Assembly: GCA_900318015.1 (NCBI GenBank)
Contig: ONJB01000020.1
Span: 1-51,514 of the forward strand
DNA from: an uncultured Bacteroidales bacterium
GTDB taxonomy: Bacteria > Bacteroidota > Bacteroidia > Bacteroidales > UBA932
Length of the DNA stretch: 51,514 bases
Direction of reading: 5' to 3'
The position numbers and the translations under genes were made by a program. This document shows, piece by piece, positions 7,006-46,211 of the stretch. Within the stretch, counting starts at the first letter, position 1. The number at the start of each line of letters is the position of its first letter. The notes under the pieces are model-generated. The model did no database searches, was not told where the DNA came from, and saw nothing but the letters and a program-made list of their open reading frames with translations.

Positions 7006-8127
7006 CTATTTTAGGACATAGTCGGAGACGGATTTGAGGCCGGTGGTGCCGAAATAGGAGGCGACGAGGCTGCCTTTGAGATAGACGCGGGTGCCGACGA
7101 GGTCGGGATGGTCCACGAGATTGAGGGCGTCGCGGATGGGGCCTTTGGGAAGTTCGACGGCGATGCAGGAGGCCTTGGACGTCACCGAGGAGCGGGAGGC
7201 GATGGCAAGGTGCGTCGCTTTCGTGAATTTGGAGGTCTTCACAGTCGTCCCGGCCGAAGACAGATCCCCCCCGACGATATAGCCGAACACCCAGATGTCA
7301 TCCTCGCCGATATGGTTGGCGGCCTGGGAGACGGAGTAGGCATTGTCGATGTCGGTTCCAGGGTCATCGCCGCCGCTGGAACCCGAGCCACCGCTCCCGG
7401 AGCCGCTTCCCGAGCCTCCTCCGCCGATGGCATAGGATTCACTGTTCCAGATCTTGGCCGTGTCTACGGCCACAGTGATGGAACTGGTGGCTGCTGCGCC
7501 GCCATGCGGGGCGGAGATGTTCAGGGTAAGGATGGTCCGGGCATCGAGCGTCCGGGTGAGGAGGGTCTCATCCGCCCCCCGATTGTTCAGGACCAGGGAG
7601 ATGGGCCCGGGTTTGAAATAGGCGATCCGTTTCTCCGAATAGCCGTACATGAGACGGGTATCCCCGGATTTGAGGTAAAGTACTCCGTCGGGGTAGGAGG
7701 TTAGGAAGTCGGGCGCGACCTGGAGGCGCACGCCGGCGTTTTCCAGGACACAGTTCAGGCGGACCGTCACGGTGGCTCCGGCCTTCACGACGACGACCTG
7801 TTCGTCGCCGTACACCGGGCGGGAAAAGCCCGGCGTCGTGAATTCGATGGAATGGACCGCCACCGTATAGCTGCCCGCATCCACCAGGAGGGATTCCGGC
7901 GAGTCGCCATAGGCGCCTTCGTACAGGATTTTCCCCTTTGCATCGGTTACCTTCAGGATGAAATCGTTCGTGTCCGGGATTTCCGCGGAGGCGGCCCGGG
8001 TATCTGCCCCGTTTCCGGCGATGATCCACCGGAGTTCCCCTTGTCCTCCGGACCGGAGTCCGAAGTCGTCACACGCGCCCAGCGCCGCCACCAGCGGCAG
8101 GAGCGCCCACAGTCTTTTGAGTCGCAT
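7006..8127 (-). CDS. Secreted lipoprotein, DUF4493-like with C-terminal DUF6359-like domain
   Basis: A 373-residue predicted lipoprotein with signal MRLKRLWALLPLVAALGAC, in which Cys19 is the lipidation site. The N-terminal two thirds (residues about 25-250) resemble the DUF4493 family of Bacteroidetes surface proteins (ILKVTDAKGKILYEGAYGD and SYTVAVHSIEF strands). A Gly/Ser-rich linker (about 255-275, GGGGSGSGSGSGGSGSSGG) joins a C-terminal domain with the pattern AYSVSQAANHIGEDDIWVFG ... GLKSVSDYVL seen in DUF6359. No enzymatic function is known for either domain; binding or surface scaffolding is a guess. It is transcribed away from the GH54 gene, 201 bases apart. A longer in-frame start exists at 8205 but would place the signal peptide internally, so the shorter start was chosen. 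Confidence 0.75.
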   Translation of the reverse strand: MRLKRLWALLPLVAALGACDDFGLRSGGQGELRWIIAGNGADTRAASAEIPDTNDFILKVTDAKGKILYEGAYGDSPESLLVDAGSYTVAVHSIEFTTPGFSRPVYGDEQVVVVKAGATVTVRLNCVLENAGVRLQVAPDFLTSYPDGVLYLKSGDTRLMYGYSEKRIAYFKPGPISLVLNNRGADETLLTRTLDARTILTLNISAPHGGAAATSSITVAVDTAKIWNSESYAIGGGGSGSGSGSGGSGSSGGDDPGTDIDNAYSVSQAANHIGEDDIWVFGYIVGGDLSSAGTTVKTSKFTKATHLAIASRSSVTSKASCIAVELPKGPIRDALNLVDHPDLVGTRVYLKGSLVASYFGTTGLKSVSDYVLK

Positions 8128-8328: not shown

Positions 8329-11300
8329 ATGAAGAAACTTTTGTTCGGAGCGGCCGTTTGCCTCGTGCTCGCCGGGGCGGCGGTGGCTTGCAAGAATCTG
8401 GCGGACAAACGGGCGGCCCTTCCGCGGCCCGAAGGCCCGTGCGACGTGTACGAACGGGGCGGCGCTCCCTGCGTGGCGGCCCACAGTACCACCCGCGCCC
8501 TATATGCGGCCTATGACGGCCCGTTGTATCAGGTCATGCGGGAATCGGACGGCAAGACCCTGGACATCGGCGTGGTCCAGGCTACCGCGGACGATCCTGG
8601 CGGCTATGCCGATGCCGATGCGCAGGACGCCTTCTGCAAGGATACCTACTGCTGGATTACGGTCCTCTATGACCAGTCCGGCAAGGGGAACCATCTGTAT
8701 CAGGCTCCGCGCGGCGGCTTCAGCGGCCCCGCGATGGGCGGTTACAACAATGTTCCCGTGGCCGACTGGGCGCCTGTGAACGTGATGGGCCACAAGGTGT
8801 ACGGCCTGTTCATCGCCCCGGGCATGGGCCTGCGCCTGAACGATCCCGTGGGCACGGCCGTGGACGACCAGGCCGAAGGCCAGTATTGGGTGATCAGCGG
8901 CCACCATTACAATTCCGGATGCTGCTTCGACTACGGCAATGCCGAGACCGACAGCCGCGACGACGGCGACGGTACGATGGAAACCACCTACTTCGGCAAC
9001 CAGCCGGCGTGGTACCATGGCGAGGAACCGGGTCCGTGGATCATGACCGACCAGGAGAACAACCTGGTAGGCTGTGTCAATGACGACCCGAACGACAAGT
9101 TCTGCGAGGGGCTCGAGTCCATCACCTGGCGGTTTGTCACGGCGACGGCCGACGGCGAGCCGCACCACTGGCGCTCCATGGGCGGAAACGCCCAGGAAGG
9201 TCCTCTGAAGGTGTATTACGACGGCGGCCGCATCCGCAACGACCGCAACAGTTACGATCCCATGCGCAAGCAGGGCGCCATCCTGCTGGGCAACGGCGGT
9301 GACAACAGCAACGGCTCCGCCGGTACCTTCTATGAGGCCGCGATGACCGCCGCGGGCACTTTCCCGACGGAGGAACTGAACCAGGCCGTCCAGGCCAATG
9401 TGGTCGCGGCCCGCTACCGGGTGGCGACCCTTGAGGTCTTCCCGTCCCTGAAGGACAACCGTCCGTCGAACGTGCAGACCTTCGTCCCCGGCGGTTCCGC
9501 CAAGACCGTGGTCCGCTTCGTCAATACGACCGATGCCCCCATCGAGGGCCTCACCCTGTCGATGAACCTGCCGAAGGGCTGGAAGGCTTCCGTCGATGGC
9601 AACAAGCAGATGGCGGTCAACTATGCAGTAGCACCCGGTCAGGCAGTCGTCGCCGAGTTCGACGTCCAGGCCGGTTCCGCGTCCTTCAACGGCGACCTGG
9701 AGGCCGTCGCCTCCTGGGACGGCGCCGCCGCCCGGGAGCGCGCCCGCCTCAAGGTCCGCTCCACGGACGCGGTGAAAATCAACGAGTTCAGCGTTACCGA
9801 CGGGTTCATCGAGCTGTACAATGCCGGGGACGAGGAAGTGAATCTCTCCGGTTGGACCGTCCGCCAGCATGCGGCGAACGTCCCGGCTTTCTCCGATATC
9901 AAGGTCCCGTCTGGCACCAAACTGGCCCCGAAGGCATTCTACGTCCTGGGCATGGCCGGTTCCGGCCTGGCAGTGGACGCCGCGAAGGGTGATGACGTCA
10001 TCTATGTCCGCAGCGTCGAAGGCATCAAGCCTGGCGATGAAATCGTCCTCGGCAAGGAAAAGTACACGGTCAAGGCGGTGAACGCTCCCGAGCCGGCCCC
10101 GGCCGCTCCGGGCCGCAATCCGTTCGGCCGCGGCTTCCAGCCCGCCGGCACGCCCACCACGGTGTGGCAGCCGCTCCCGGGCGGCCACGGTGTCGAGTTC
10201 CCGGCCGGATCGACCAACATCCCCGTTACGTCCACCGCGCATTTCCAGGTGGGTCAGAAGATGGCCATCGGCTACGGAACGGACCGTCCCGCCGTCTCCC
10301 GCGTCCTCGAGAAGTATGAGGTCGTGACGGTCACGGAGGTGGGCAAGCCCGGTACGCAGGGGTATCTGTCCATGGACGCGAAACCGGGGGGCACCAACAT
10401 CAAGGTCTCCTCGACGGCCAATATCTCCGTGGGGGACCGCATCCGCCTGGATATCAACAGTGAAGGTCATGGTATTGAAACGGTGACGGTGACGGCCGTG
10501 GGCACGCCTTCCGCACGCAACACGCTGAACGGCCCGCTGCACGAGGACGAAGATCCGGGCACGGGCCTGGACATCGCCGAACCGCTGCAGTTCGCCCACG
10601 CTTCCAACATGCCGTACAGCGTGAACGGAACGGGCATCACGTTCGAGCCCGCCACCAAATTCGCGCATTACAGCAACGAGCCGGTCCTCGCACTGTGCTT
10701 CTCCCTGGAACTGGAACAGCCGCTCAAGTCGGCCCATGCCATCAACGAGCCCGTCGTGGCCGGCTCCGCCGGCTTCTCCGGGAAGGCGGATCTCCTGTTC
10801 GGCGGTCCCGCCCTCTCCCAGAGCGCCGGCAACATCACGCTCCGTGACGCGAAGGGCAACGTCGCCGATGCGCTCAACTACGGTCTCGTCGTGGATCCGT
10901 ATCTGGCAGAAGGCTATCAGGCCGATTCCGGTCTGGAACAGGACGGAAACTTCGTCCGGGTCCCGTATCCGGCCCGCCGCGGCTTCGGTTTCGGCGCCGG
11001 TCCCGCTCCGGCCGTCGCTTCTCTCAGCGCGGGCCGTTTCCCGGATGGCAACGACCTGGATGATAACAAGTTCGATTTCAGCGTGCAGCAGGCTCAGAAC
11101 CTCGCCCTGGCGGCCGAGGCCGGCGCGACCAACCTCAAAGTGACCTCCGTGGAGGGCTTTGTGGAGGGCGGTCCGATCGTCGTGGGCAATACGGAGGTTC
11201 TGACGGTGGCGAAGGTGGGAACACCCGGCAGTACGACCCTGCAGTTCCCGGCAGGTGTGGGCACGAAGACGCTCGTGGTCGTCTCTGCGATGAATTTCAC

Positions 11301-11556
11301 GCCCGGGCAGGAAGTGCTGGTGGGCGGTGAGAACGCCGTCGTCTCCGAAGTGTTCTTCCCGCGTGGTTGGTGGGTCCCTCGTGAGCAGCAGGTCCACAAA
11401 CTGGTTCTCGCAGCGCCGCTTCGCAAGGCCCATAGCGTCGGCGAGGATGTCTCCGGCTCGGGCGTGACGCTTTCCGCGCCGCTGAAGGCCGCCTATCCGG
11501 CCGGTGCGGCCGTGGCTTCCGCCCAGCCCACGCCGGGCGCCGCGAACCGCTATTAG
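8329..11556 (+). CDS. GH54-type alpha-L-arabinofuranosidase lipoprotein with NEW3, lamin-tail and repeat modules
   Basis: A 1075-residue exported enzyme. A lipoprotein-type signal ends at Cys21. Residues about 30-370 closely follow the catalytic domain of fungal AbfB (GH54), which removes terminal arabinofuranose from arabinan and arabinoxylan. The likely nucleophile is Glu243 (in WIMTDQENN) and the acid/base Asp325 (in NGGDNSNG). All six fungal disulfide cysteines are kept: C38/C48, C103/C108 and the vicinal pair C198-C199. The fungal CBM42 is absent. Instead there is a NEW3-like beta domain (about 372-480) and a lamin-tail domain that starts at KINEF (about 483) and ends at PTPGAAN (last residues), interrupted by about five beta modules of the type GATNLKVTSVEGF...G. 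The downstream VKOR-DsbA gene starts one base after its stop. The start chosen is the ATG before KKLLFGAAV; upstream in-frame codons lack coding character. Confidence 0.9.
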   Translation: MKKLLFGAAVCLVLAGAAVACKNLADKRAALPRPEGPCDVYERGGAPCVAAHSTTRALYAAYDGPLYQVMRESDGKTLDIGVVQATADDPGGYADADAQDAFCKDTYCWITVLYDQSGKGNHLYQAPRGGFSGPAMGGYNNVPVADWAPVNVMGHKVYGLFIAPGMGLRLNDPVGTAVDDQAEGQYWVISGHHYNSGCCFDYGNAETDSRDDGDGTMETTYFGNQPAWYHGEEPGPWIMTDQENNLVGCVNDDPNDKFCEGLESITWRFVTATADGEPHHWRSMGGNAQEGPLKVYYDGGRIRNDRNSYDPMRKQGAILLGNGGDNSNGSAGTFYEAAMTAAGTFPTEELNQAVQANVVAARYRVATLEVFPSLKDNRPSNVQTFVPGGSAKTVVRFVNTTDAPIEGLTLSMNLPKGWKASVDGNKQMAVNYAVAPGQAVVAEFDVQAGSASFNGDLEAVASWDGAAARERARLKVRSTDAVKINEFSVTDGFIELYNAGDEEVNLSGWTVRQHAANVPAFSDIKVPSGTKLAPKAFYVLGMAGSGLAVDAAKGDDVIYVRSVEGIKPGDEIVLGKEKYTVKAVNAPEPAPAAPGRNPFGRGFQPAGTPTTVWQPLPGGHGVEFPAGSTNIPVTSTAHFQVGQKMAIGYGTDRPAVSRVLEKYEVVTVTEVGKPGTQGYLSMDAKPGGTNIKVSSTANISVGDRIRLDINSEGHGIETVTVTAVGTPSARNTLNGPLHEDEDPGTGLDIAEPLQFAHASNMPYSVNGTGITFEPATKFAHYSNEPVLALCFSLELEQPLKSAHAINEPVVAGSAGFSGKADLLFGGPALSQSAGNITLRDAKGNVADALNYGLVVDPYLAEGYQADSGLEQDGNFVRVPYPARRGFGFGAGPAPAVASLSAGRFPDGNDLDDNKFDFSVQQAQNLALAAEAGATNLKVTSVEGFVEGGPIVVGNTEVLTVAKVGTPGSTTLQFPAGVGTKTLVVVSAMNFTPGQEVLVGGENAVVSEVFFPRGWWVPREQQVHKLVLAAPLRKAHSVGEDVSGSGVTLSAPLKAAYPAGAAVASAQPTPGAANRY

Positions 11557-11557
11557 C

Positions 11558-12688
11558 ATGACGCTCCGCAGGTTCAAGACCACGGCGCTGCTCCTTTGCG
11601 CCGCCTGCCTCGCCCTCGCCGGATGGATGCTTTTCCATTCCTTGACGGGCGTACAGATGGTGGGCTGCGGCGTGGGTAGCGGGTGTGACAGCGTGATGGG
11701 GAGCCCCTGGGCCTATGTGCTCGGGGGCGTCCCTGTCAGCCTGCCCGCCGTCGTGTCCTACCTCCTGCTGGCGCTCTGCATCGTTTTCCTGGGCGGGGAG
11801 TCCCCGGAGGACCGCTCCCTGGACCGTATCCTTTGGCCGATGATGCTCACCCTCGCCGGCGCCATCGCCGGCGCTGCCCTCTGGTTCTGCTATCTGCAGC
11901 TTTCCGTCCTCCACGCTTTCTGCAAGTACTGCACACTCTTGCATCTGCTCGGGTGCGTGCTCGCCGGTTTGATCCTGGTTGCCGGCCGGACCTTGAGCCT
12001 GTCGAAGGGCCGCTACGGCTGGTTCGCCGTCGGCCTCGTATCGGCGGCCGTATTCGCCTTCGTCCAATCCCGTACGCTGCCGGCGGCAGCCTATGACACC
12101 GGTCGGACAGAGGCGGCGCTTCCGACATTCTCCGAGGGGGAAGTCCCCGTTTTGGGACCGTCGGATGCCCCTGAAGAACTCACCTTGCTGTTCGACTTCC
12201 AGTGCATCCATTGCCGTCGGCTGCATCCGGACCTGCCGGAGCTGTTGGAGAAGGCCGGCGGACAGTACCGCATCCACCTGTGTCCGGTCCCGTTGAGCAG
12301 CGCTTGCAACCCGTACATTCCTTCCACGGGTGTGGACCGCTTCGCCGGATCCTGCCCGCTCACACGCTATGCGCTCGCGGTCTGGTATGCCTGCCCGGAT
12401 GCGTACGGGGCGTATTGGGACTATTTGCTGGGCGGCGGCGACGCGCGTGCGGCCGTTGCTCCGGCCGAGGCGGAAGCCCGTGCCCGGGCGCTTCTGGGCG
12501 AGGATTTCCAAACTGCCGTGAAGGATCCGCGCATCGACGCCTACCTCCGCAAGGTGGAGGAGCTCTTCGGCCGTACGTCCAACGCGGAGAAGAGCGGCGT
12601 GCCGCGCCTCATCCACGGGCAGAAGTGGCTGGTCCCCGAAACGGACCAGGCGGACGAGCTGCTGGAGCTCATCCGCCTGTCCCTGTAA
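11558..12688 (+). CDS. VKOR-DsbA fusion, disulfide-bond-forming membrane enzyme
   Basis: A 376-residue fusion. Residues 1-170 are a vitamin K epoxide reductase-type membrane domain with about five hydrophobic helices, loop cysteines C37 and C43 (CGVGSGC), and the active site C122-KY-C125. Residues about 190-376 form a periplasmic thioredoxin/DsbA-like domain with active site C216-IH-C219 in FDFQCIHC, a second Cys pair (C242, C250) and a cis-Pro candidate in GVPRLIHG. In bacteria such proteins pass electrons from substrate cysteines through the thioredoxin domain to the VKOR domain and then quinone, replacing DsbA plus DsbB. The gene begins one base after the GH54 stop, so the two are almost surely co-transcribed and GH54 is a likely client. 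Residues 145-151 (TLSLSKG) are encoded by a repeat-like DNA segment. Confidence 0.9.
   Translation: MTLRRFKTTALLLCAACLALAGWMLFHSLTGVQMVGCGVGSGCDSVMGSPWAYVLGGVPVSLPAVVSYLLLALCIVFLGGESPEDRSLDRILWPMMLTLAGAIAGAALWFCYLQLSVLHAFCKYCTLLHLLGCVLAGLILVAGRTLSLSKGRYGWFAVGLVSAAVFAFVQSRTLPAAAYDTGRTEAALPTFSEGEVPVLGPSDAPEELTLLFDFQCIHCRRLHPDLPELLEKAGGQYRIHLCPVPLSSACNPYIPSTGVDRFAGSCPLTRYALAVWYACPDAYGAYWDYLLGGGDARAAVAPAEAEARARALLGEDFQTAVKDPRIDAYLRKVEELFGRTSNAEKSGVPRLIHGQKWLVPETDQADELLELIRLSL
11988..12009. repeat. Dispersed-repeat-like segment inside the VKOR-DsbA gene
   Basis: The motif CTTGAGCCTGTCGAAGG is a familiar core of dispersed repeats in many bacterial genomes. Here it stays in frame and encodes SLSKG in a loop between two predicted helices. 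The repeat identity is from recall; a single copy lies in this window. Confidence 0.4.
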
Positions 12689-12702: not shown

Positions 12703-13521
12703 CTACCGGAGTACCTGCGTGAAGACCGGCTCCTTGCCGTCTTCCGCCAGGACGTACACCTTGATGAAATGGTCCGGCGCGTCTTCGGCGGCGGGGCCCA
12801 TAGGCAGGTCCTTTGCGGTGAAGAGATACTCTGTTCCGCAAGGCACGGTACGGCTGGCCACCTCGGTCGCCTGGGCGTGGATCATCGGGTAGCTGCCCAC
12901 GGCGGCGTCGAAGATCGCCGCGGCGGCCTCGTCGGCCGGCTTCGGCTCGGAGAACGCCGGCAGGGGAGCGACCTCACCCGCGAGGAATCCATTGGCTTTC
13001 AGGAAGTAATCGACCTCGGCCTTGGCCGCGTCGATGCGGGCGGCGCGCACGCCGTAGCCCGGCAGGATTTCCGCATTCGGGAGCTTCGCCTGCAGGTCCT
13101 TCGTGCTGCTGTCCAGTCCGCCGCTGCCGAAGGTGCAGAACGGGACGACCTTCTTGCCGTCCAGGTTCACGGCTTCCAGCGCGGCGGCCACCGGCGGGGC
13201 GTAGGTGCCCATCCAGATCGGATAGCCGAGGAAAATGATGTCGTAGGCATTGACATCGACGGTAAAGGGCTTGAGCTCAGGAAGTTTGCCTTCCGCGGCA
13301 TCCTTCGCGCAGCGGGCAGCCACGGCCGGGATGTCCCCCTCGTAAGGAACGACGGGGAGGATGGCTTCGAGGTCCGCGCCGAGGGCGTTGGCAATCTCTT
13401 CGGCCACGACCTTCGTCGTGTTCGTCTGGGAATAGTAGAGCACCAGGACCTTCGGTGCCTTCTTCTGGGAGCAGGAGACCGCCAGCACGAGGGCGGCCGC
13501 CAGGATGAGTAACTGTTTCAT
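12703..13521 (-). CDS. Flavodoxin-like lipoprotein
   Basis: A 272-residue predicted lipoprotein, MKQLLILAAALVLAVSC with Cys17 as the lipidation site. It is followed by a flavodoxin-fold domain: the FMN phosphate-binding loop is YYSQTNTTK (about residues 30-38) and the flavin-side loops are FLGYPIWMGTYAPP and CTFGSGGLDSS. It resembles flavodoxin_4-type proteins of Bacteroidetes, but being exported it should act in the periplasm or at the surface. A C-terminal extension of about 90 residues (from PLPAFSEPK on) has no recognised domain. It converges on the VKOR-DsbA gene with 14 bases between stops, so a redox link to that enzyme is possible but unproven. The start was chosen at the signal peptide; an in-frame extension to 13605 passes through the promoter. 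Confidence 0.85.
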   Translation of the reverse strand: MKQLLILAAALVLAVSCSQKKAPKVLVLYYSQTNTTKVVAEEIANALGADLEAILPVVPYEGDIPAVAARCAKDAAEGKLPELKPFTVDVNAYDIIFLGYPIWMGTYAPPVAAALEAVNLDGKKVVPFCTFGSGGLDSSTKDLQAKLPNAEILPGYGVRAARIDAAKAEVDYFLKANGFLAGEVAPLPAFSEPKPADEAAAAIFDAAVGSYPMIHAQATEVASRTVPCGTEYLFTAKDLPMGPAAEDAPDHFIKVYVLAEDGKEPVFTQVLR

Positions 13522-18607: not shown

Positions 18608-21541
18608 TCAAGACTTGTTCTGCCGATGCATCTCGGAAGGGGTGATATTGAACTCTTTAGTGAAACAACGGGTGAAATATTTCGGATCGTTGAAGCCGAC
18701 TTCGTAGGCGATTTCGGAGATGTTCATGTCCGTGTTCGTCCCGTTGCTGATCATTTCCTTCGCGACGTTCAGCCGGTAGGTCCGGATGAACTGCGCAATG
18801 GACAGGCCGAAACCTTCCTGGATCTTCTCGTTCAGGAGAGTGCGGCTCATGCCCAGGGCGTCGGCGAGCTTGTAGACATCCAGTTCCGGATCCTTGTACA
18901 TCTTCTGGATCGCTTCCAGGAGCTGCGTGTTGAAGTCGGAATCGCGGCTGGAGGCGGTGCTGGACATGAGGGTATGGTTGCTCGCGATCATCTCGTTCTG
19001 CTTCTGCAGCAGCGCATTCTGCTCCGCGAGGGCCTCGGCCTTGCGCTCCAGCTCTTCTTTCTGCTTCTTCAGCTCTTTCATCTGCCGGTCCACTTCCTGC
19101 TGCAGGAGGTCCTTTTTCCGGGAGATGGACCGCGTGTACCAGCGCACGAAGAGGTAGACAAGGACGGCGAGGACCAGCAGCGCAAGCAGCCGGAACCACC
19201 AGCGGTTGTACAGGACCGGAATCACGACCAGCGTCTTCGCGTCCTGCGAGAGGACATTGCCTTTCTTGTCCACGGCCCTGATCTGGATCTGGTACTTGCC
19301 GCCGGGGATATGTCCGAATTTCACGTGGGTGTCCTTGCCGAAAATCGGCGCCCAGTCCTTGTCCATGGGCCAGATCCGGCTCTCGTAGACGATATCCTGC
19401 CGCTTGCCGTAGGACAGGTCCGCGAACTTCAGCGTGAAGTCGTTGTCCTTCTCGCCCTTGCTGACCGTATGGGCATAGGCGAGGCTGTGGAATTCATCTT
19501 TCGAATAATACCCCGAAATCACGACACTCGGCAGGTTCCCCCATTCGTTGGATACGTAACCGGACCGAAGGATGCTGAATCCACCTTCTTTCTGGCCGAT
19601 GTAGAGAGTCCCGTCACGGCCTTTGGCGACGCTGTTCTCGCAGAAGGACATGGACTTGAGCCCATCGTACCGGTCATAGCTGGTCAGTTCGCCCGTCTGG
19701 GTGTCCAGGCGGGAAAGGCCGTTCTCGGTCGTAATCCACAGGTACATCCCGTCCAGCAGGAGGCCGTTGATCTGGTTGTCCGCCAGGCCGTCCTCCTCGG
19801 AATAGACGGTAATGTCCGGTTTTTCGGCCTCGCAATGGTCCAGCCGATAGAGGCCGTTTCCATACGTCCCAGCCCAGATGGTGTCCCCGTCCGGTACAAG
19901 CGACATGCACATGGGGAACCCTTCGATCACGCGGGAATCCAGGGTTTTCAAGTCGATGATGCGCATTCCTTCCATGCTGCTCACCCACAGTTTGCCGTCC
20001 GCCAGGCAGGCGCCCAGGCAGCCGGGGAGTTTGGGGGAGTATTCCGAGAACGCGGAACGCTTGAGATCGTAGAAATACAGCCCGCTGCGGGCGGCCAGCC
20101 AGATGTAATCGTTGACCGGATCGTACACCATCCCGAGGATGACGTTGATGTTCCGGGCGATTTCCGACTTGGAGCCTTCCGGGATGCGGACGACGTCCGG
20201 GCTGGACAGGCTCATATAGCTCAGATGTCCGTCCACGGTGCCCATCCAGAGCCTTCCCTGGCCGTCTTCGCAGAAGGCCGTGATGGAATTGCTCACGAGC
20301 GCGGAATTATCCGTATTATAGTTCCGGAACAGGAGGTCGCCGACTTGCCGGCACACGCCGAATCCGGTCGCGGCCAGCCACAGGCGGCCCTGACTGTCGA
20401 TGTGAAGGGCCCGGACCGGCGTGGTCGGGATTGGGGAGGAGGTGGTTTCGATGCGGGAGATGTTGGTGAGCTTGAGGCTCTTTTTCTGGAGGATGACCAG
20501 CCCTTCCGCTTCCAGGCCCACCCAGATCTGCCGTCCCCGGGTGGCGAGGCTCCGCACGATCTCGCCCGGGAGAATCTGGTTTCCGTAATCATTGGCGCGG
20601 GAGCCGTACGTGTCGAATGCATGGCGGGCGGGATTGTAGATGCTCACGCCACCCAGGGTGCCGATCACGATTTCGTTGTCCTCCGTCAGGCAAAGGCCGG
20701 TGATTTCGTTGTTGGGAATAGAGTGCGGGTCGGCGTCGGAATGCAGATAGCAGGTTTTCTGGCCGGAGGTGAGGTCCACGCGGTACAGCCCGTTCATGGT
20801 CCCGATCCATACTTCATTCCCCGCGCGCAGGAACGCGGTGGCCCGGTTGTCTTCGCCGATGAACAGGTCGGGCAGGATCTCAGACTTGGTGATTCCTTTT
20901 CCTTCGATGGGGCGGACCTTGTAGAAGCGGCCGCCCAGGGTGATCCAGACGGATCCGTCCTGCTCCACATCGCCGGCCTTGGGCATCAGGTTGTCGTTGG
21001 GGACGTCGCATAGCAGGGAATCCACGAGGATGCGGCTGCCGTCGTCAGAGAAAGCGACGCGGAAAAGCTTGTCGGCGGAGGTGAACCAGATGCAGCCTTT
21101 TTCATCCCTCCGGAGCGCTGCCGGCGGATGTGCGCGGCGCCAGGCCCTGGACATGCCGGGGAAGTCGCCCAGCGGGGTGAGGGTTTCCAGGTCCATCACT
21201 TCCAACGTCGCGCCGGGAATCCAGATCCGGCCGTAGTTGTCCTCGCGGCACTGGCGGACGATGTCGCCGATGGATCTCGCGCCTGTCTTGCTGGAGAAGG
21301 TCAGGAAGGAATCCCCGTCATACCGGACGAGTCCGCCGCCGAAGGTGCTGATCCACGCGTACCCCCGGTTGTCGAAGTAGATTCCGTTGATGTCCTGGTC
21401 CGGCAGCCCGTCCTCGCGCGTGAGCCGGTTTACGACCATGTAATCCTCGGCCTCTGTCTGGGCGTTGAGCCTGCCTGGCAGGGACAGTGCGATAAGCACT
21501 GCCAGAATAAAATCCACCCACCTTGAAATTTTTTCCACCAT
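18608..21541 (-). CDS. Reg_prop/Y_Y_Y sensor fused directly to an AraC DNA-binding domain
   Basis: A 977-residue membrane regulator. A signal peptide (1-27, ending LNAQ) precedes Reg_prop beta-propeller repeats (about 40-680, recurring GLPD.DING.., G.IW..T..GL patterns). A Y_Y_Y domain follows (about 690-775), then one TM helix (about 780-803, WWFRLLALLVLAVLVYLFV). A cytoplasmic coiled coil (about 808-860, LLQQEVDRQMKELKKQKEEL) leads to an AraC-type helix-turn-helix (about 870-977, ISEIAYEVGFNDPKYFTRCF). It has the sensor and output of a hybrid two-component system but no HisKA, HATPase or receiver domain, so signalling must be direct. It is divergent from susC/susD, its probable target. The two promoters share the 88-base gap. 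Confidence 0.92.
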   Translation of the reverse strand: MVEKISRWVDFILAVLIALSLPGRLNAQTEAEDYMVVNRLTREDGLPDQDINGIYFDNRGYAWISTFGGGLVRYDGDSFLTFSSKTGARSIGDIVRQCREDNYGRIWIPGATLEVMDLETLTPLGDFPGMSRAWRRAHPPAALRRDEKGCIWFTSADKLFRVAFSDDGSRILVDSLLCDVPNDNLMPKAGDVEQDGSVWITLGGRFYKVRPIEGKGITKSEILPDLFIGEDNRATAFLRAGNEVWIGTMNGLYRVDLTSGQKTCYLHSDADPHSIPNNEITGLCLTEDNEIVIGTLGGVSIYNPARHAFDTYGSRANDYGNQILPGEIVRSLATRGRQIWVGLEAEGLVILQKKSLKLTNISRIETTSSPIPTTPVRALHIDSQGRLWLAATGFGVCRQVGDLLFRNYNTDNSALVSNSITAFCEDGQGRLWMGTVDGHLSYMSLSSPDVVRIPEGSKSEIARNINVILGMVYDPVNDYIWLAARSGLYFYDLKRSAFSEYSPKLPGCLGACLADGKLWVSSMEGMRIIDLKTLDSRVIEGFPMCMSLVPDGDTIWAGTYGNGLYRLDHCEAEKPDITVYSEEDGLADNQINGLLLDGMYLWITTENGLSRLDTQTGELTSYDRYDGLKSMSFCENSVAKGRDGTLYIGQKEGGFSILRSGYVSNEWGNLPSVVISGYYSKDEFHSLAYAHTVSKGEKDNDFTLKFADLSYGKRQDIVYESRIWPMDKDWAPIFGKDTHVKFGHIPGGKYQIQIRAVDKKGNVLSQDAKTLVVIPVLYNRWWFRLLALLVLAVLVYLFVRWYTRSISRKKDLLQQEVDRQMKELKKQKEELERKAEALAEQNALLQKQNEMIASNHTLMSSTASSRDSDFNTQLLEAIQKMYKDPELDVYKLADALGMSRTLLNEKIQEGFGLSIAQFIRTYRLNVAKEMISNGTNTDMNISEIAYEVGFNDPKYFTRCFTKEFNITPSEMHRQNKS

Positions 21542-21571
21542 TTAATATATTTTTTCCACCACGTCTACGGG

Positions 21572-21603
21572 CAAAGATATGTATTTTTGTGAAAACGACC
21601 AAA
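21572..21603. promoter_or_regulatory. Face-to-face overlapping promoters of the regulator and susC
   Basis: Minus strand: TTTG (21600-21603), 20 bases, TATCTTTG (21572-21579), a full consensus driving the regulator. Plus strand: -7 TATTTTTG (21582-21589) for susC with no -33 TTTG at the right distance. The susC -7 box lies inside the spacer of the regulator promoter, so the two should compete, and susC probably needs an activator. Confidence 0.65.
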
Positions 21604-21629
21604 ACAATCAATCAACTAAACACTGATTT

Positions 21630-24600
21630 ATGAAATTATTCAACGCTTTCCGCTGCCTTTTCCTTACAGGAATGGTGATGTTTTTCGGGGTGGAAACTTT
21701 CGCCCAGAATGTCACCGTCAAGGGAAAAGTGTCAGACTCGAGTGGCGAACCGATCATCGGTGTCACTGTCATGCTCAGCAGTAACAACACTGTGGGCACC
21801 CTCACGGACGGGAATGGTAACTACGCGATTACCATTCCGGCGAACTCCTCCCTCACGTTCTCCTGCGTCGGTTTCGCTACCCAGGAAGAGCAGCTGAATG
21901 GACGCACGGTCATCAATGTCGTGCTCCAGGAAGACACCGAGTTCCTGGATGAAACGGTCGTCGTCGGTTATGGTACCCAGAAGAAGCGCCTGCTTACGGG
22001 TGCCACGATCAACATCACGGGTGAGGATATCCAGAAGCAGAGCACGACGAATGCGCTGGGCGCCTTGTACAGCTCCGTTCCTGGTGTGAACATCGTCCAG
22101 TCCAGTGGTGGTCCGGGCGCCGGTTACAACATCACGGTCCGTGGTATCGGCACCACCGGCTCCGCGAGCCCCCTCGTTGTCATCGACGGTGTGGCCGGCG
22201 GTCACCTCGAGGACCTGAACCCTGCCGACATCGAATCCATCGACATCCTGAAGGATGCGGCGTCTGCGGCCATCTACGGTGCCCGCGCGGCGAACGGTGT
22301 CGTCCTCGTGACCACGCGTCAGGGCAAGATCGGTGAGAAGAAAGCGACCGTTACTTTCGATGCGTACACGGGTATCCAGCAGCCGAACACCAATGGCGTC
22401 CACGGGGTTACCGCCTCGGAATACCTGGATTTGATCAGCAAGGCGGGCCTGCATGAATTCGACAATATCGAATCGACCATGCCTGTCCAGATGCAGTGGA
22501 TCCGGGAAGGAAAGTGGAACGGTACGGACTGGTTCACCGAGTCCATCAACAAGAATGCTCCCAACAACAATATGGTTGTGGGCGTGACCGGCGGCAGCGA
22601 CTCCGTCCGTTACTCCTTCAGCTTCTCCAAGTCCTATCAGGAAGGTACCCTGGGTGTGCCGAAGGTGACCTATTATGATAGAACGACCGTACGCGCGAAC
22701 ACGGATTTCACCGTCTTGAAGAAGAACAACCGCGATGTCATCAAACTCGGCGAGAACGTGACCGTTTCCATTACGGGCTCCCGGGGCATGAGCACCGGCG
22801 GCCGTGGCAGCGACGTGTCCAACCTGCTGACCAAGACCCCGCTCCTCCCGGCCTACGACCTGGATGGCTCCATCTATACCTATGACAAGCAGGTGCGGGA
22901 TCATTGGGATGCCCGGGACAACGAAGTGAACCTGCTGCAGGAACGCGAGATGAAAGAAAGCGAAGGCAAGGGCGTGCGTGTCCAGGGTAATGTCTACCTG
23001 GAGGTTTCCCCCATCCGGGACCTGAGGTTCCGCACGGCGTTCGGTTTCCGCGCCAACACCAATTTCTCCCGTTCCTATACGCCGATCTATCAGCTGACGG
23101 CCTCTGACTTCAAGGAATACGACAGCGTGAGCCAGAGCTCCAGCGTCTCCACCAACTGGACCTGGGAGCTGACCGCCAACTATCGGAAGACCTTTGCCAA
23201 GGCCCATACCATCGAGGCGCTGGCAGGTACTTCCATCGAGGCGACGGGCTGGGGCATGAGTGTCAACGGTACCCGTTCCACGACCAAGTTCGGAACCTGG
23301 GAATCGGCCAACCTCGGTTCGGTCGAAGGCGCCCTGACGAGCGATGAGCACGCCAGCATGGGCGGTGGCAACACGATCCCCTACAACAGCCTGCTCTCCT
23401 TCTTCGGCCGTCTGAACTACAGCTACAAGGACAAGTATCTGCTGACGGCCATCGTCCGTTCCGACGGTTCCTGCAACTTTGCCAAGGGCCACCGCTGGGG
23501 CATCTTCCCGTCCATCTCCGCCGGTTGGGTGATCTCCTCCGAGCCTTGGATGGCGTCCACGAAGGACTGGCTCAGCTTCTTCAAGATCCGCGGCAGCTGG
23601 GGACAGAACGGTAACTGCCGGATCGACAATTTCCAGTACACCGGTACGATCTCGCTGAGCGGCCAGTATGACTTCTCCTACGACCAGACGAACCCGGTCT
23701 CGGCCGCCTATCCCGACAAGATTCCGAACTCCAAGCTCTCCTGGGAGACCTCCCAGCAGCTGGCCATCGGTTTCGACTCCCGCTATTTCCGGAGCCGCCT
23801 GGGTGTCATCTTCGACTGGTATCAGAAAGATACCAAGGACTGGCTGGTGACTCCTCCGTCCATGGGTATCCTGGGCGCCAGCGCCGCCTCCATCAACGGC
23901 GGCGCCGTGCGGAACTCCGGTGTGGAGCTCAGCTTCACCTGGAACGACAAGGTGGGCGACCTCCGCTACAGCGTGGGCCTCAACGGTTCCTACAACAAGA
24001 ACAAGGTCCTCTACATCAACAATGCCGACGGTATGATCCACGGTGAGAAGAAGATCATTTCCGAGAACGTGGCCAAGGAAGACGGCTTCCGCGCCGAACC
24101 GGGCAAGCCGATCGGCTACTTCCTGGGTATGGCCAGCGAGGGTATCTTCCAGAACCAGGCCCAGATCGACGAGTACAACGCGAAGGGCTACCTCTTTATG
24201 AACGGTTATGAGAACGCCCAGCCTGGTGACGTCATCTGGATCAACCAGAACGGGGATGACAAGTACGACGAGAAGGACTGCGTCGAGATCGGTAACCCGC
24301 ATCCGGACTTCACCATGGGCTTCAGCATCAGCCTGCAGTGGAAGGGCATCGATTTCAGCATCAACGGCAGCGGCGCCTTCGGCCAGCAGGTCATGCAGAG
24401 CTACCGCCAGTTCGCCCTCCAGGACCTCCAGAGCTTCACCAACAACCTGGTCGCCCGCTACTGGACCGGCGAGGGTTCCACCAACAAGTTCCCGCGCTAC
24501 TCCTCCGGCTCGCACAACAACTTCAAGTGCAACAGCTACAACAGTGATATCTTCATCCAGGACGCCGACTATGTCAAGATCCGCAACATCACCCTGGGTT

Positions 24601-24809
24601 ACGACTTCAAGCAGGTGTTCAAGCGGCTTCCTTTCCAGATGCTCCGCATCTTCGTGACCGGCCAGAACCTCTTCACGTTCACCGGCTATGACGGCATGGA
24701 TCCGGAAGTCGGTACCGGCGCCCCCGGTTACAGCTGGTCTTCCGGTATCGACACCGGTTTCTATCCTTCTCCTAAGGTTTACATGGCTGGTGTCAGCATC
24801 AAATTCTAA
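21630..24809 (+). CDS. SusC-type TonB-dependent outer-membrane transporter
   Basis: A 1059-residue SusC homolog. The signal peptide ends near FAQ26. A carboxypeptidase-D-like beta domain follows (VTVKGKVSDSSGEPIIGVTV, about 28-105), then a TonB box (DETVVVGYG, about 107-115). The plug has the SusC pattern GVNIVQSSG...YNITVRGIGT...SPLVVIDG and ILKDAASAAIYGARAANGVVLV. The 22-strand barrel fills the rest and ends in KVYMAGVSIKF with a C-terminal Phe. It forms the channel under the SusD lid and imports oligosaccharides. susD follows 12 bases later. No glycosidase gene is attached, so the substrate cannot be read from context. Confidence 0.95.
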   Translation: MKLFNAFRCLFLTGMVMFFGVETFAQNVTVKGKVSDSSGEPIIGVTVMLSSNNTVGTLTDGNGNYAITIPANSSLTFSCVGFATQEEQLNGRTVINVVLQEDTEFLDETVVVGYGTQKKRLLTGATINITGEDIQKQSTTNALGALYSSVPGVNIVQSSGGPGAGYNITVRGIGTTGSASPLVVIDGVAGGHLEDLNPADIESIDILKDAASAAIYGARAANGVVLVTTRQGKIGEKKATVTFDAYTGIQQPNTNGVHGVTASEYLDLISKAGLHEFDNIESTMPVQMQWIREGKWNGTDWFTESINKNAPNNNMVVGVTGGSDSVRYSFSFSKSYQEGTLGVPKVTYYDRTTVRANTDFTVLKKNNRDVIKLGENVTVSITGSRGMSTGGRGSDVSNLLTKTPLLPAYDLDGSIYTYDKQVRDHWDARDNEVNLLQEREMKESEGKGVRVQGNVYLEVSPIRDLRFRTAFGFRANTNFSRSYTPIYQLTASDFKEYDSVSQSSSVSTNWTWELTANYRKTFAKAHTIEALAGTSIEATGWGMSVNGTRSTTKFGTWESANLGSVEGALTSDEHASMGGGNTIPYNSLLSFFGRLNYSYKDKYLLTAIVRSDGSCNFAKGHRWGIFPSISAGWVISSEPWMASTKDWLSFFKIRGSWGQNGNCRIDNFQYTGTISLSGQYDFSYDQTNPVSAAYPDKIPNSKLSWETSQQLAIGFDSRYFRSRLGVIFDWYQKDTKDWLVTPPSMGILGASAASINGGAVRNSGVELSFTWNDKVGDLRYSVGLNGSYNKNKVLYINNADGMIHGEKKIISENVAKEDGFRAEPGKPIGYFLGMASEGIFQNQAQIDEYNAKGYLFMNGYENAQPGDVIWINQNGDDKYDEKDCVEIGNPHPDFTMGFSISLQWKGIDFSINGSGAFGQQVMQSYRQFALQDLQSFTNNLVARYWTGEGSTNKFPRYSSGSHNNFKCNSYNSDIFIQDADYVKIRNITLGYDFKQVFKRLPFQMLRIFVTGQNLFTFTGYDGMDPEVGTGAPGYSWSSGIDTGFYPSPKVYMAGVSIKF

Positions 24810-24821
24810 TTCCGAAAGCAT

Positions 24822-26630
24822 ATGAAAAAGATTATATTCATCCTGACCGCTTGCATCCTGGCCGTTGTCAGCTGCGACAAGATCGACAGCCTGCTGGATA
24901 CGAAGAACTATCAGAAGGCGGACACCTCTTCCTTCCCCCAGACCGAGAAGGACGCAGAACAGCTGGTCAACTCGGCCTACTCCACCATGCACTCCCTGTA
25001 TACGGGCAGTATCTTCCGGATCAACCTGTTCCGGCGCATGATCGCCAGTGACGACTATTACGGCGGCGGCTCCACGAGTTCCAAGGAGACCACGGCCGCG
25101 GACCGTCTGCTCGCCCCGTCCATGGATGAGGACAACTCCCCGTGGAAGAGCTACTACAACGGACTGTTCCGCTGCAACTTCGCCCTCGAGGCCATCACCG
25201 CCATGGAGGACGACAAGTTCACCGGAGACAACAAGAACTGGTTCCTGGGACAGGTGCACTTCATGCGTGCTTTCTGGCTCTGGGAGCTGGCCGAGCGGTA
25301 TGAGACCTTCCCGCTGACGCTTTCCACCGAAGTGGAGAACATGCCCAAGGCCGAAGTCGACGAGATCTACAAGGCGATCGGCGACGACCTCGTCGAGGCC
25401 ATCAAGCTGATTCCGGGGAAATACGGTTATTCCCGGGACAACAATCTCGCCGGCCGCGCCACGAAGTATGCCGCCGAGGCGCTCCTGGGCCGTGTATGGC
25501 TTTTCTACACGGGCTTCTACAAGAAGAGTGAGATGGCAGGCATCTCCAAGGCGCAGGTGATCAGCTACCTGGAGGAATGCGCCAATACCAGCGTCTCCAA
25601 GTTCGACCTGGAGGACGACCCGCGCGAAATCTGGCCTTACACCAATACGTATTCCAGCGGTATCGAGTATGGCGCCGACTTCGACACCTACGCCAACCAC
25701 GAGAATCTCCGCTGGGTGGGCAACCACAGCAAGGAGACCGTCTGGGGCGTGCATTTCTCGCTCACCGGCAACGGTTACAACCGTCTCCCGGAATGGATCG
25801 GCATGCGTAATTCCGCCCAGCGTCCCAACAAGGACAGCTATCCTTATGCGGCCGGTTCCAACGGCAACGCTCCCGTCAACCCCCTCGCGGTCAAGGAGTG
25901 GTATGAGGATCCGGATTACGGCCCGCAGGACAAGCGTTTCTACGGTTCCTTCCTCGCCGCCAACGAAAAGAAGGTCAAGGCTGGAAATCCTTGGTTCGCG
26001 GACGGTTATGTCGAGCTTCCGAACTTCCCGGGCCACGACAGCAAGGAAATCGAAAGAACCTGGTTCTATCCCAAGAAGTATCAGGCGGTCGCCTGCTATT
26101 CCGATGGTGCCAAGTCCAGCCTGCTCAACAACTTCTTCAATGCCGTGAACGGCGCTGTCTCCAACAACCCGAAGAGCGGCAACAAGAACGACGCGATCTA
26201 CATCCGCTTCGCCGACGTGCTGCTGATGCTGGATGAGCTGAAGGAGACCACGACCGGTATGAACCGGCTCCGCGCCCGCGCCGGCCTCGCGCCGTACAGC
26301 GGCTACACCTTCGAGCGGCTCCAGAAAGAGCGTCGCTGGGAACTCTTCACCGAGGGCATGCGTTTCAACGACCTTCGCCGCTGGTATCCCGAAAGAGCCG
26401 GTGAGATCATCCAGCAGAACCAGGACGGCGGCTACATCGAGTTCAAGGGAAAGCCGACGACCTATCAGGAGCTTCCGGGACGTTCCTTCTCCCAGCGGTA
26501 TGCGCTCACCCGCGGTTTCTGGATGATCCCGCAGGAGCAGATCGGCCTCCAGGAAGGAATGCTCACCCAGAACAAGGGATTCGAAGACCAGGATAACTAC
26601 CTCTTCGTCGACGGAGACCTTCCGTACTAG
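24822..26630 (+). CDS. SusD/RagB-type outer-membrane lipoprotein
   Basis: A 602-residue SusD homolog. Its lipoprotein signal MKKIIFILTACILAVVSC puts the lipidated Cys at residue 18. The body has the TPR-like helical fold of the family: TEKDAEQLVNSAYSTMHS near the N-terminus, and a C-terminal RagB/SusD segment with NRLRARAGL, LQKERRWELFTEGMRFNDLR and the end FWMIPQEQIGLQ. It binds glycans at the surface and closes the SusC barrel. It is the last gene of the pair, with a strong hairpin at 26696-26723 after it. Confidence 0.95.
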   Translation: MKKIIFILTACILAVVSCDKIDSLLDTKNYQKADTSSFPQTEKDAEQLVNSAYSTMHSLYTGSIFRINLFRRMIASDDYYGGGSTSSKETTAADRLLAPSMDEDNSPWKSYYNGLFRCNFALEAITAMEDDKFTGDNKNWFLGQVHFMRAFWLWELAERYETFPLTLSTEVENMPKAEVDEIYKAIGDDLVEAIKLIPGKYGYSRDNNLAGRATKYAAEALLGRVWLFYTGFYKKSEMAGISKAQVISYLEECANTSVSKFDLEDDPREIWPYTNTYSSGIEYGADFDTYANHENLRWVGNHSKETVWGVHFSLTGNGYNRLPEWIGMRNSAQRPNKDSYPYAAGSNGNAPVNPLAVKEWYEDPDYGPQDKRFYGSFLAANEKKVKAGNPWFADGYVELPNFPGHDSKEIERTWFYPKKYQAVACYSDGAKSSLLNNFFNAVNGAVSNNPKSGNKNDAIYIRFADVLLMLDELKETTTGMNRLRARAGLAPYSGYTFERLQKERRWELFTEGMRFNDLRRWYPERAGEIIQQNQDGGYIEFKGKPTTYQELPGRSFSQRYALTRGFWMIPQEQIGLQEGMLTQNKGFEDQDNYLFVDGDLPY

Positions 26631-39121: not shown

Positions 39122-41053
39122 ATGAAAAAAGTATTTTCCGTCCTGGGCCTCCTGGCCGTCCTGCTTCTGCTTCCTACCTGTAAGAAACAGAACCCGGAAC
39201 AGGAAAAGGTCGACGTTCAGTTCGAGGTTCCCGCCACGATGACCATCGAGGACGGCGCCTCCGAGATCAGTTTCCGCGTCCAGTTCGCGAAGCCGCCGGT
39301 GTCCGGCGACCAGATCGTCCTGGGCAGCGGAACCGCGGAGTACGTCTGTCCGGTCACATCCGTTTCCGACACACGCTTCTCCGCGTCCATTTCCGGCGTC
39401 TGGTCCAAGGGCTTCGGCCCCGGCACTTACACGGTTTCTCATCAGCGCGGCGCCACGAAGACGCGGAAAGGGACGATGGAAGTCCTCATCAAGGGTGCGG
39501 GGGACATCGAACCCGCTGCGGGCGTCACCGTGTACGGCATGGTCACCTGCGACGGTACCGGCCTCGCGAATGTCGTGGTCTCCGACGGCGTGGAAGTCGT
39601 GAAGACGGATTCCAAGGGCGTTTACCAGATGAAGTCCAAGAAATTCAACGGCTACGTGTTCGTCTCCACCCCGAGCGGCTACGAACCCTTCGTCAGCGGT
39701 CTCCTGCCCGTCTTCCATACGAAACTCAAGGCCAATGCCGCGACCGCGGAGCGCGTCGACTTCCAGCTGAAGAAAGTCGAGGGACAGGAAAACCACCGGA
39801 TGCTGATGCTGGGCGATATCCACCTGGCGGCCCGCAACGACGACCGGAAACAGTTCGCCGAGTTTGTCAAGGATCTCAATGCCACCGTTTCCGCCACCCC
39901 GGGCAAGGTGTACGCCCTCACCCTCGGCGACATGACCTGGGACCTGTACTGGCTTGACAACAAGTATTCTTTCAAGGAGTACCTGTCCGACGCCGCCGGC
40001 ATCAAGGGCGTGATGCTGTACCACACCATCGGCAACCACGACCACAGCATGTACTACATGGGCGACTTCGACACGGTCAAGGACTACAAGGAGAACATCG
40101 GCCCCACCTATTATTCTTTCAACATCGGCAAGGTCCATTATGTGGTCCTGGACGACGTGGAATGCACGAACAGCACGAAGAATTCCGACCGGACGGATGG
40201 CGCTTATGTGCGCGCTTACGACGGCCGCGTGGTCGCGGACGAACTGGCCTGGCTCCGGAAGGACCTCGCCTCCGTCCCGAACGGAACGCCGCTCGTCGTA
40301 ACGATGCATATCCCGTTGTATAACAACAAGGGCCAGTACGGACTGAAGGAGGCATCGACCCTGGCGAACGTGCTCAAGCCCTATCCCGAGGTCCATCTGT
40401 ACACGGCCCACACCCATACGGTGTACAACAAGGACGAGCTCGCGACGGACCACCTCTTCGAGCACAATGCCGGCGCGATCTGCGCGACCTGGTGGTGGAC
40501 TGGAAAGCTGACGCCGGGAGTGCACATCGGCCAGGACGGCTCCCCGGGCGGGTACACCATCCTGGACATCGCGGGCACGGACTTCAAGTGGCAGTACAAG
40601 GCCACGGGAAAGGGGACGGACTACCAGTTCCTCACCTATGACCGGAACCAGATCCACCTCACCAAGGACAAGTATGCCCCGAATTATACCGGAAGCGATT
40701 TCAAACCCTCCATCTGGGGGACGGCCAGCTCTGCCAACGAGGTCTATGTCAATGTCTGGAACTGGGATCCGTCCTGGAAGGTCGAGGTGACCGAGGACGG
40801 GAAGCCGCTGACGGTGTCGCAGCTGGTCTCCGGCGAGCTGGATCCCCTCCATTACATCGCCTACACGGCCAAGCGGTATGCTTCCAACTCGGCGGTCACC
40901 TTCCCGACCGGCAAGAACTACCATATGTTCAAGGTCACGGCCTCCAGTGCGAATTCCACCCTGGACATCAAGGTCACGGACCGCTTCGGCAACGTCTATA
41001 CGGAGACGATGACCCGACCGAAGGCCTTCACCACCGACCAATACAAATTCTAA
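39122..41053 (+). CDS. Calcineurin-like metallophosphoesterase lipoprotein
   Basis: A 643-residue lipoprotein with the lipidated Cys at residue 20 (LLLLPTC). The N-terminal beta domains (about 30-220) include a carboxypeptidase-regulatory-like fold (GVTVYGMVTCDGTGLANVVV). The metallophosphatase core (about 225-460) has all dimetal motifs: D232/H234 (GDIHL), D270 (LGDM), N305-H306-D307 (GNHD), H396 (MHIP) and H430/H432 (HTHT). A C-terminal MetallophosC-like beta domain follows (about 480-643). It should hydrolyse a phosphate mono- or diester outside the cytoplasm. As first gene of the operon with susC, susD and a BACON lipoprotein, and opposite an alpha-mannosidase, removal of phosphate from a mannose glycan is a reasonable guess. 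Confidence 0.9.
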   Translation: MKKVFSVLGLLAVLLLLPTCKKQNPEQEKVDVQFEVPATMTIEDGASEISFRVQFAKPPVSGDQIVLGSGTAEYVCPVTSVSDTRFSASISGVWSKGFGPGTYTVSHQRGATKTRKGTMEVLIKGAGDIEPAAGVTVYGMVTCDGTGLANVVVSDGVEVVKTDSKGVYQMKSKKFNGYVFVSTPSGYEPFVSGLLPVFHTKLKANAATAERVDFQLKKVEGQENHRMLMLGDIHLAARNDDRKQFAEFVKDLNATVSATPGKVYALTLGDMTWDLYWLDNKYSFKEYLSDAAGIKGVMLYHTIGNHDHSMYYMGDFDTVKDYKENIGPTYYSFNIGKVHYVVLDDVECTNSTKNSDRTDGAYVRAYDGRVVADELAWLRKDLASVPNGTPLVVTMHIPLYNNKGQYGLKEASTLANVLKPYPEVHLYTAHTHTVYNKDELATDHLFEHNAGAICATWWWTGKLTPGVHIGQDGSPGGYTILDIAGTDFKWQYKATGKGTDYQFLTYDRNQIHLTKDKYAPNYTGSDFKPSIWGTASSANEVYVNVWNWDPSWKVEVTEDGKPLTVSQLVSGELDPLHYIAYTAKRYASNSAVTFPTGKNYHMFKVTASSANSTLDIKVTDRFGNVYTETMTRPKAFTTDQYKF

Positions 41054-41077
41054 ATACCAACCAACAACAAAACATCT

Positions 41078-44365: not shown

Positions 44366-44383
44366 CGTATGGAGGATAAGACC

Positions 44384-46192: not shown

Positions 46193-46211
46193 CCGCTAAA
46201 TGAGTATGACT

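Follow-up and report, generated by a model that had tools for sequence, protein, structure and literature searches.

The closest described counterpart of the locus treated here is the DsbL-DsbI-ASST operon of uropathogenic Escherichia coli and Salmonella, in which the genes for a client enzyme and a specific DsbA/DsbB-type pair stand side by side in one operon (PMC3526765, PMC12453122); DsbL can still complement the motility of a dsbA mutant (PMC12453122). The same source deals with a VKOR-DsbA fusion from Clostridium sp., which shares the architecture discussed below and is oxidase-active in E. coli, where it complements a dsbA dsbB double mutant, so that a fusion of this kind can work alone; the available text describes no client linkage for it (PMC12453122). 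Here, we analyse a stretch of 51,514 nucleotides (in the following, "the window", meaning the whole stretch), which is contig C37 in the draft genome of an uncultured gut bacterium of the Bacteroidales (3.2 Mb in 106 contigs, completeness 92.5%). On its plus strand, a gene for an alpha-L-arabinofuranosidase-like protein of family GH54 is followed, after a single base, by a gene for a VKOR-DsbA fusion. This pairing is beyond chance, as order and strand recur over four phyla, and the recurrence suggests that the fusion folds the GH54 protein; the two genes probably constitute a client-plus-oxidase unit, in which a menaquinone-coupled oxidase travels with the GH54 enzyme and folds it.

In the DsbL-DsbI-ASST operon, the DsbA-like and the DsbB-like partner are distinct proteins, in a host that has a general DsbA/DsbB system as well. 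The GH54 unit differs by its single VKOR-DsbA fusion, by a glycoside hydrolase as the putative client, and by hosts which mostly lack DsbB and other VKORs. Both gene products also have relatives of solved structure. The VKOR-thioredoxin fusion of Synechococcus (3kp9, 4nv2, 4nv5, 4nv6) has a VKOR core and a C-terminal thioredoxin fold and is matched both in sequence and in fold, but the C-terminal domain of the window fusion fits DsbA-like chains best; we know of no linked client of the cyanobacterial fusion. AkAbfB (1wd3, 6sxt) shares with the GH54 protein a catalytic domain with six equivalent cysteines and aligned catalytic residues, but has no counterpart of C249/C259, and instead of an arabinose-binding module the window protein carries, according to Pfam, NPCBM-associated and lamin-tail domains after the catalytic domain. 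Both parts are known as protein families; what is new, as far as could be seen, is that they are paired, that the pair extends over several phyla and that the two co-occur almost perfectly. No report of a GH54-VKOR pairing was found in a literature search of partial coverage, with most subscription papers outside it; the one listed paper with both VKOR and arabinofuranosidase is unrelated.

The GH54 protein is classified as alpha-L-arabinofuranosidase-like, with its activity predicted, on the basis of a full domain and the catalytic positions. The PF09206 match covers profile positions 1-314 of 315 (388.9 bits against a curated cut-off of 25), the closest solved structures are of the AkAbfB type (1wd3, E 1.6e-106; 6sxt, E ~1e-106), and D325 and E243 align with the AkAbfB catalytic residues, being kept in 122 and 123 of 123 distinct GH54 rows, respectively. 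We take E221 of AkAbfB to be the nucleophile and the residue aligned with D325 to be the acid/base. By eye, the N-terminus resembles that of a lipoprotein and ends in AVAC. A predicted model of the GH54 domain was set aside because of its mean pLDDT of 78.9 and weak loops. The C-terminal ~500 residues (window positions 10003-11553) have no Pfam match and contain, as judged by eye, about five repeats of the type T-N-I-K-V-S-S ... G-D.

A preliminary description of this DNA had noted six cysteines with AkAbfB-like spacing, and the alignment to 1wd3 bears this out, with C38/C48, C103/C108 and C198-C199 falling on the six AkAbfB cysteines and the vicinal pair lying 45 residues ahead of E243; in AkAbfB, these cysteines presumably form three disulfides. 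Not contained in that description was the fourth pair, C249/C259, which begins six residues past the nucleophile. The 123 GH54 rows comprise two classes, 100 distinct rows of type A and 23 rows of type B. Among the type A rows, pair 38/48 is complete in 95, absent in four and gapped in one, pair 249/259 is complete in 99 and absent in one, pair 103/108 is complete in 99 and reduced to a single cysteine in one, and pair 198/199 is complete in all 100. Since rows from GTDB were fetched by two patterns, one of them holding the vicinal motif, the figure for 198/199 is unbiased only in the profile-found rows, where the pair is kept in 44 of 44. The pairs 38/48 and 249/259 each lose both partners or neither, never a single one, which is what disulfides predict. 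In type B, pair 249/259 is lacking and pair 198/199 is kept in every row; 38/48 is kept in 21, and 103/108 has both cysteines in 12 rows, one in four and none in seven. A representative of this class, G000:C43:30783-31739 (L003, L012), and 16 more genes of the genus keep the nucleophile position and are losing the second pair.

The second gene product combines a PF07884 domain (E 4e-16, residues 11-137; 59.8 bits against a cut-off of 27.5) with a Thioredoxin_4 domain (E 3.5e-5), and its VKOR is the sole VKOR match over the cut-off in the window genome. The previously described VKOR site (C37, C43, C122-C125) and thioredoxin site (C216-C219) are indeed present, and each of these redox cysteines is kept in 22 or 23 of 23 fusions, one row being truncated before C37. 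A further pair in the DsbA domain that had gone unremarked, C250/C266, is found in 23 of 23 fusions, and P349 is invariant across 26 fusion rows. We assume P349 to occupy the cis-Pro position, just as we take CxHC to be the DsbA oxidase motif. The predicted model of the fusion (mean pLDDT 90.3) resembles DsbA-like chains (ScsC, alpha-DsbA2, BdbD, MdbA) as well as the Synechococcus VKOR. With CxHC, the conserved proline, and VKOR and DsbA-like domains, the protein carries features of the oxidase type and is predicted to catalyse quinone-dependent thiol oxidation. As menA is over the cut-off in the window genome and the window itself holds nqrA and part of nqrB, menaquinone is plausible as the electron acceptor.

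The two genes were followed through a sample of 200 genomes of the genus. GH54 is over the cut-off in 23, VKOR in 21 and both in 20 of them (Fisher p 2.3e-23, kinship ignored). When the GH54 genes are split by hand into 25 of type A and 17 of type B, VKOR-DsbA is found in 20 of the 21 genomes with type A and in 0 of the 179 others, comprising two genomes with type B only and 177 without GH54 over the cut-off. The lone type A genome without the fusion, G406, is 77% complete and its GH54 gene runs off the contig. At the gene level, the fusion directly follows 15 of the 25 type A genes, four lie at contig ends and six are unlinked; in one of the contig-end cases (G561), the fusion is found on a different contig, where it stands behind what is left of a GH54 C-terminus. 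Within the genus, the fusion directly follows 0 of 17 type B genes, which in two loci come third after type A and fusion. In 15 gene-called pairs (14 from the genus, one from another family of the order), ten upstream and ten downstream neighbour families occur, and the intergenic gap is 1-32 bases in 12. Three weak matches were not counted as VKOR-DsbA or GH54. Two are VKORs, that of G550, which passes the cut-off narrowly at 27.8 bits in one of the 177 genomes without GH54 and is of another kind, and that of G407, which stays under it at 25.6 bits; neither region has a BLAST match to either half of the window fusion. The third is a GH54 match with stops in G558 (18.4 bits). The G550 gene (G550:C34, L088) has, by eye, a peptidase-exporter-like gene downstream; that of G407 lies at G407:C1 (L089).

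The order sample (393 genomes) contains full-length GH54 in three genomes and a partial match in a fourth; only the first three carry the fusion subfamily, whose gene adjoins GH54 each time. A VKOR of any kind is over the cut-off in 19 genomes of this sample. Counting every VKOR as equivalent was rejected because those of the 16 other genomes reach at most 21 bits on the VKOR profile of the subfamily; 16 of the 22 over-cut-off VKOR matches of the order (L205-L228) lie in frames of 510-558 aa of other architecture, in genomes without full-length GH54. The phylum sample (395 genomes) gave GH54 matches in six genomes, but those of the five besides the window genome are partial, at 28 to 39 bits, and were left out of the GH54 counts along with the match of G244 (28.2 bits).

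A scan of GTDB, from which 80 loci were kept out of 573 confirmed candidates (some contigs overlapping the genus and order samples), places the fusion directly downstream of type A in 32 loci and not in 31, with 17 undecidable at contig ends. Linked loci belong to Bacteroidota (22), Planctomycetota (6), Verrucomicrobiota (3) and Ignavibacteriota (1, without the fourth pair), unlinked ones to Acidobacteriota (14), Bacteroidota (8), Pseudomonadota (5), Gemmatimonadota (1), Verrucomicrobiota (1) and others (2). Type B genes in the scanned loci are linked in none, unlinked in five and at contig ends in two. Over the 32 linked pairs, GH54 and VKOR-DsbA distances correlate with r 0.60, and 0 of 5000 permutations reached this value, overall as well as within phyla; shared host descent could give part of the correlation. 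The claim of the preliminary description that GH54 possesses its own oxidase is, thus, sustained in that the two belong together (20 of 21 genomes versus 0 of 179; 32 of 80 loci adjacent; r 0.60), but not in its exclusivity, in view of the unlinked genes, the esterases and the locus L194 dealt with below. In the genome of L176, a gene for a GH54 protein with 15 cysteines is followed by a strongly diverged VKOR fusion (L202; 104 and 36 bits), which perhaps represents a fast-evolving version of the unit.

For 50 of the 80 loci, chosen by us (24 linked, 26 with no link seen), VKOR and DsbB were searched in the host genomes. Another VKOR is present in 2 of 24 linked hosts and DsbB in 0 of 24, whereas the 26 hosts with no link seen have VKOR in 12, DsbB in seven and either of them in 17 (Pseudomonadota 5 of 5, Gemmatimonadota 2 of 2, Acidobacteriota 9 of 15, Bacteroidota 1 of 1, Verrucomicrobiota 0 of 1, other 0 of 2). 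GH54 without an adjacent oxidase, which the preliminary description had held to speak against the pairing, is indeed found in 31 of the 80 loci, though 17 of the 26 sampled hosts with no link seen have another VKOR or DsbB at their disposal. The contrast of 2 of 24 versus 17 of 26 has a Fisher p of 3.3e-5, and of 1.2e-4 (14 of 22) without three contig-end loci and L171; the latter was dropped as a Bacteroidota exception, its genome having an oxidase behind another GH54 copy of type B. Among 31 genomes from the genus and the order, the window genome included, none gave a DsbB match.

These data can be accommodated in the following scheme. The exported GH54 enzyme would need several disulfides, namely C38-C48, C103-C108, the vicinal C198-C199, and C249-C259 near the nucleophile. 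In the membrane topology we assume, the DsbA domain would face the periplasm and hand its C216-C219 disulfide to GH54, upon which the VKOR domain would re-oxidise the DsbA domain and pass the electrons to menaquinone. The likeliest route of electrons would, thus, lead from the GH54 thiols via C216-C219 and the VKOR cysteines to menaquinone, before GH54 arrives at the cell surface. The unit may move between bacteria as such because DsbB and further VKORs are missing from most of its hosts, and may split in lineages many of which own another VKOR or DsbB.

Taken further, the unit could be a portable cassette for oxidative folding: the glycosidase would spread to anaerobes and other bacteria without a Dsb pathway only by bringing its quinone-coupled oxidase, which would be dropped in hosts with one of their own, and in the anoxic gut it would furnish disulfides for one exported enzyme in a cell otherwise without a catalyst. 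To this extended reading we give an even chance. If it is true, a requirement for disulfide formation can influence which enzymes are passed from one phylum to another, and gut anaerobes that lack DsbB are still able to oxidise selected proteins. Alongside DsbL/DsbI-ASST, the unit would also provide an independent case of a dedicated oxidase encoded within an operon, and a practical rule would be to supply the linked VKOR-DsbA when bacterial GH54 enzymes are expressed.

Several observations weigh against a client-plus-oxidase unit. With relatedness allowed for, the host comparison leaves three to five independent contrasts, with which a sign test cannot reach significance, and absences of oxidases are soft, the genomes being drafts and the 50 sampled hosts having no completeness figure. 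Neither VKOR nor DsbB is matched in 9 of the 26 hosts with no link seen, including four Bryobacterales, so that the full set of GH54 cysteines is compatible with the absence of these oxidases. Six type A genes of the genus are unlinked, with the fusion located elsewhere in each of their genomes. Likewise, four fusion genes of the genus lie away from GH54, three of them beside carboxylesterases (L071, L072, L077) and one beside a protein with no Pfam match (L017). G455 (95% complete) and G531 (87%) have type B GH54, but searches for VKOR-DsbA and DsbB found neither in them, and L194:4898-9803 is the sole case seen in which the fusion directly follows a type B gene, itself preceded by what appears by eye to be an esterase-like gene.

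The same type B genes bear on the vicinal disulfide, in which the preliminary description had seen the special reason for a dedicated oxidase. This argument is not supported, since type B keeps the vicinal pair in 23 of 23 rows, including those of G455 and G531, the two drafts in which neither VKOR-DsbA nor DsbB was found; as the main driver of the pairing, the vicinal disulfide was rejected on account of these type B paralogues, which lack the fourth pair. Contrary to this rejection, the type B protein of L194, behind which the fusion stands, has only C38, C48 and the vicinal pair among the eight cysteine positions.

The Bryobacterales genomes at L158, L163, L172 and L192 are 5.9-11.5 Mb in size and have type A GH54, yet nothing in them matches VKOR or DsbB; an oxidase outside these two families may be at work there.

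Carboxylesterases are possible second clients of the fusion. Those in its neighbourhood match PF00135 (E 1.1e-86 or lower in the five genes scanned), and esterases beside the fusion or behind some GH54 genes have cysteine positions in common which many others of the 35 compared lack. At L071, L072, L077, L091, L097 and L130, the extra common cysteines are located at about 86, 125, 162 and 514 (L077 numbering). PF00135 matches number 18-21 in G460, G540, G479 and the window genome and 2-10 in the six other genomes searched; since carboxylesterases are common in these genomes, some adjacency may be due to chance. The esterase neighbours together with the gene order of L194 suggest that the oxidase may act on a limited group of secreted enzymes that contain cysteines. 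In the genus sample it occurs only in genomes with type A GH54, yet some copies lie beside carboxylesterases, and in L194 one lies behind a type B gene.

An alternative is a general oxidase that arrived with GH54 and acts as the sole disulfide catalyst for many exported proteins (GH54 of both types, carboxylesterases and others), the linkage reflecting a route of acquisition and not the choice of a client. The window genome, with one VKOR over the cut-off and no DsbB found, would fit such a role, as would the carboxylesterases with common extra cysteines adjoining the fusion in L071, L072 and L077, the type B genes downstream of the pair in several loci, and the position of the fusion in L194. 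A generally useful oxidase would, however, hardly be confined in the way observed, with the fusion in 0 of 179 genomes of the genus that are without type A GH54, and the linkage survives the turnover of flanking genes; we consider this explanation unlikely. Even less can be said for operon hitchhiking, in which the genes were joined once and co-inherited without functional coupling. Although the linked state clusters strongly on the GH54 tree (8 changes, contig-end rows left out), the pair is kept over four phyla at median between-phyla identities of ~75% for GH54 and ~37% for VKOR-DsbA while its neighbours turn over, and the unlinked genomes of the genus still have the oxidase, which makes mere co-inheritance very improbable. 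Finally, a role of the fusion as isomerase or reductase, correcting wrongly formed disulfides or opening the vicinal one, as could be read from the best fold matches, which are ScsC proteins (some of these being isomerases), and from the flavodoxin-like gene downstream in the window on the opposite strand, is scarcely credible, because the VKOR part would keep the fusion oxidised, CxHC is presumably an oxidase motif, no reducing partner was recognised by eye among the listed neighbours (not all of them scanned), and the flavodoxin-like gene stands beside 0 of the other 14 gene-called pairs.

Table 1. Features of the GH54 and VKOR-DsbA genes in the window
Feature	Position	Strand	Details
GH54 gene	8329-11556	+	ATG 8329, stop 11554-11556; 1075 aa; predicted secreted alpha-L-arabinofuranosidase-like protein, type A (four cysteine pairs)
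GH54 catalytic domain, residues 37-363	8437-9417	+	PF09206, E 2.1e-116
Codons for vicinal pair C198-C199	8920-8925	+	Translation, AkAbfB alignment
E243 codon	9055-9057	+	Aligned with AkAbfB E221
Fourth cysteine pair C249/C259	9073-9105	+	Lacking in AkAbfB and in paralogous type B
NPCBM-associated domain (residues 387-456) and lamin-tail domain (478-558)	9487-10002	+	PF10633, E 4.1e-7; PF00932, E 3.3e-13
VKOR-DsbA fusion	11558-12688	+	ATG 11558, stop ends 12688; 376 aa; predicted quinone-coupled thiol oxidase
VKOR domain with C37, C43, C122, C125	11588-11968	+	61.6 bits in genome scan
CxHC active site C216-C219, DsbA domain	12203-12214	+	C216, H218, C219 invariant in 26 rows

The pair, whose spacing of one base on one strand (11556/11558) is as previously described, is flanked by two genes of the minus strand, coding for a DUF4493-DUF6359 protein (7006-8127) and the flavodoxin-like protein (12703-13521), both with lipoprotein-like starts by eye. 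The DUF4493-DUF6359 gene, too, recurs beside 0 of the other 14 gene-called pairs. Outside the surroundings of the pair, two loci of the SusC/SusD type can be made out by eye, one at 18608-26630 with a large sensor-regulator-like gene and the other at 39122-49571, and the GH54-VKOR pair lies apart from both.

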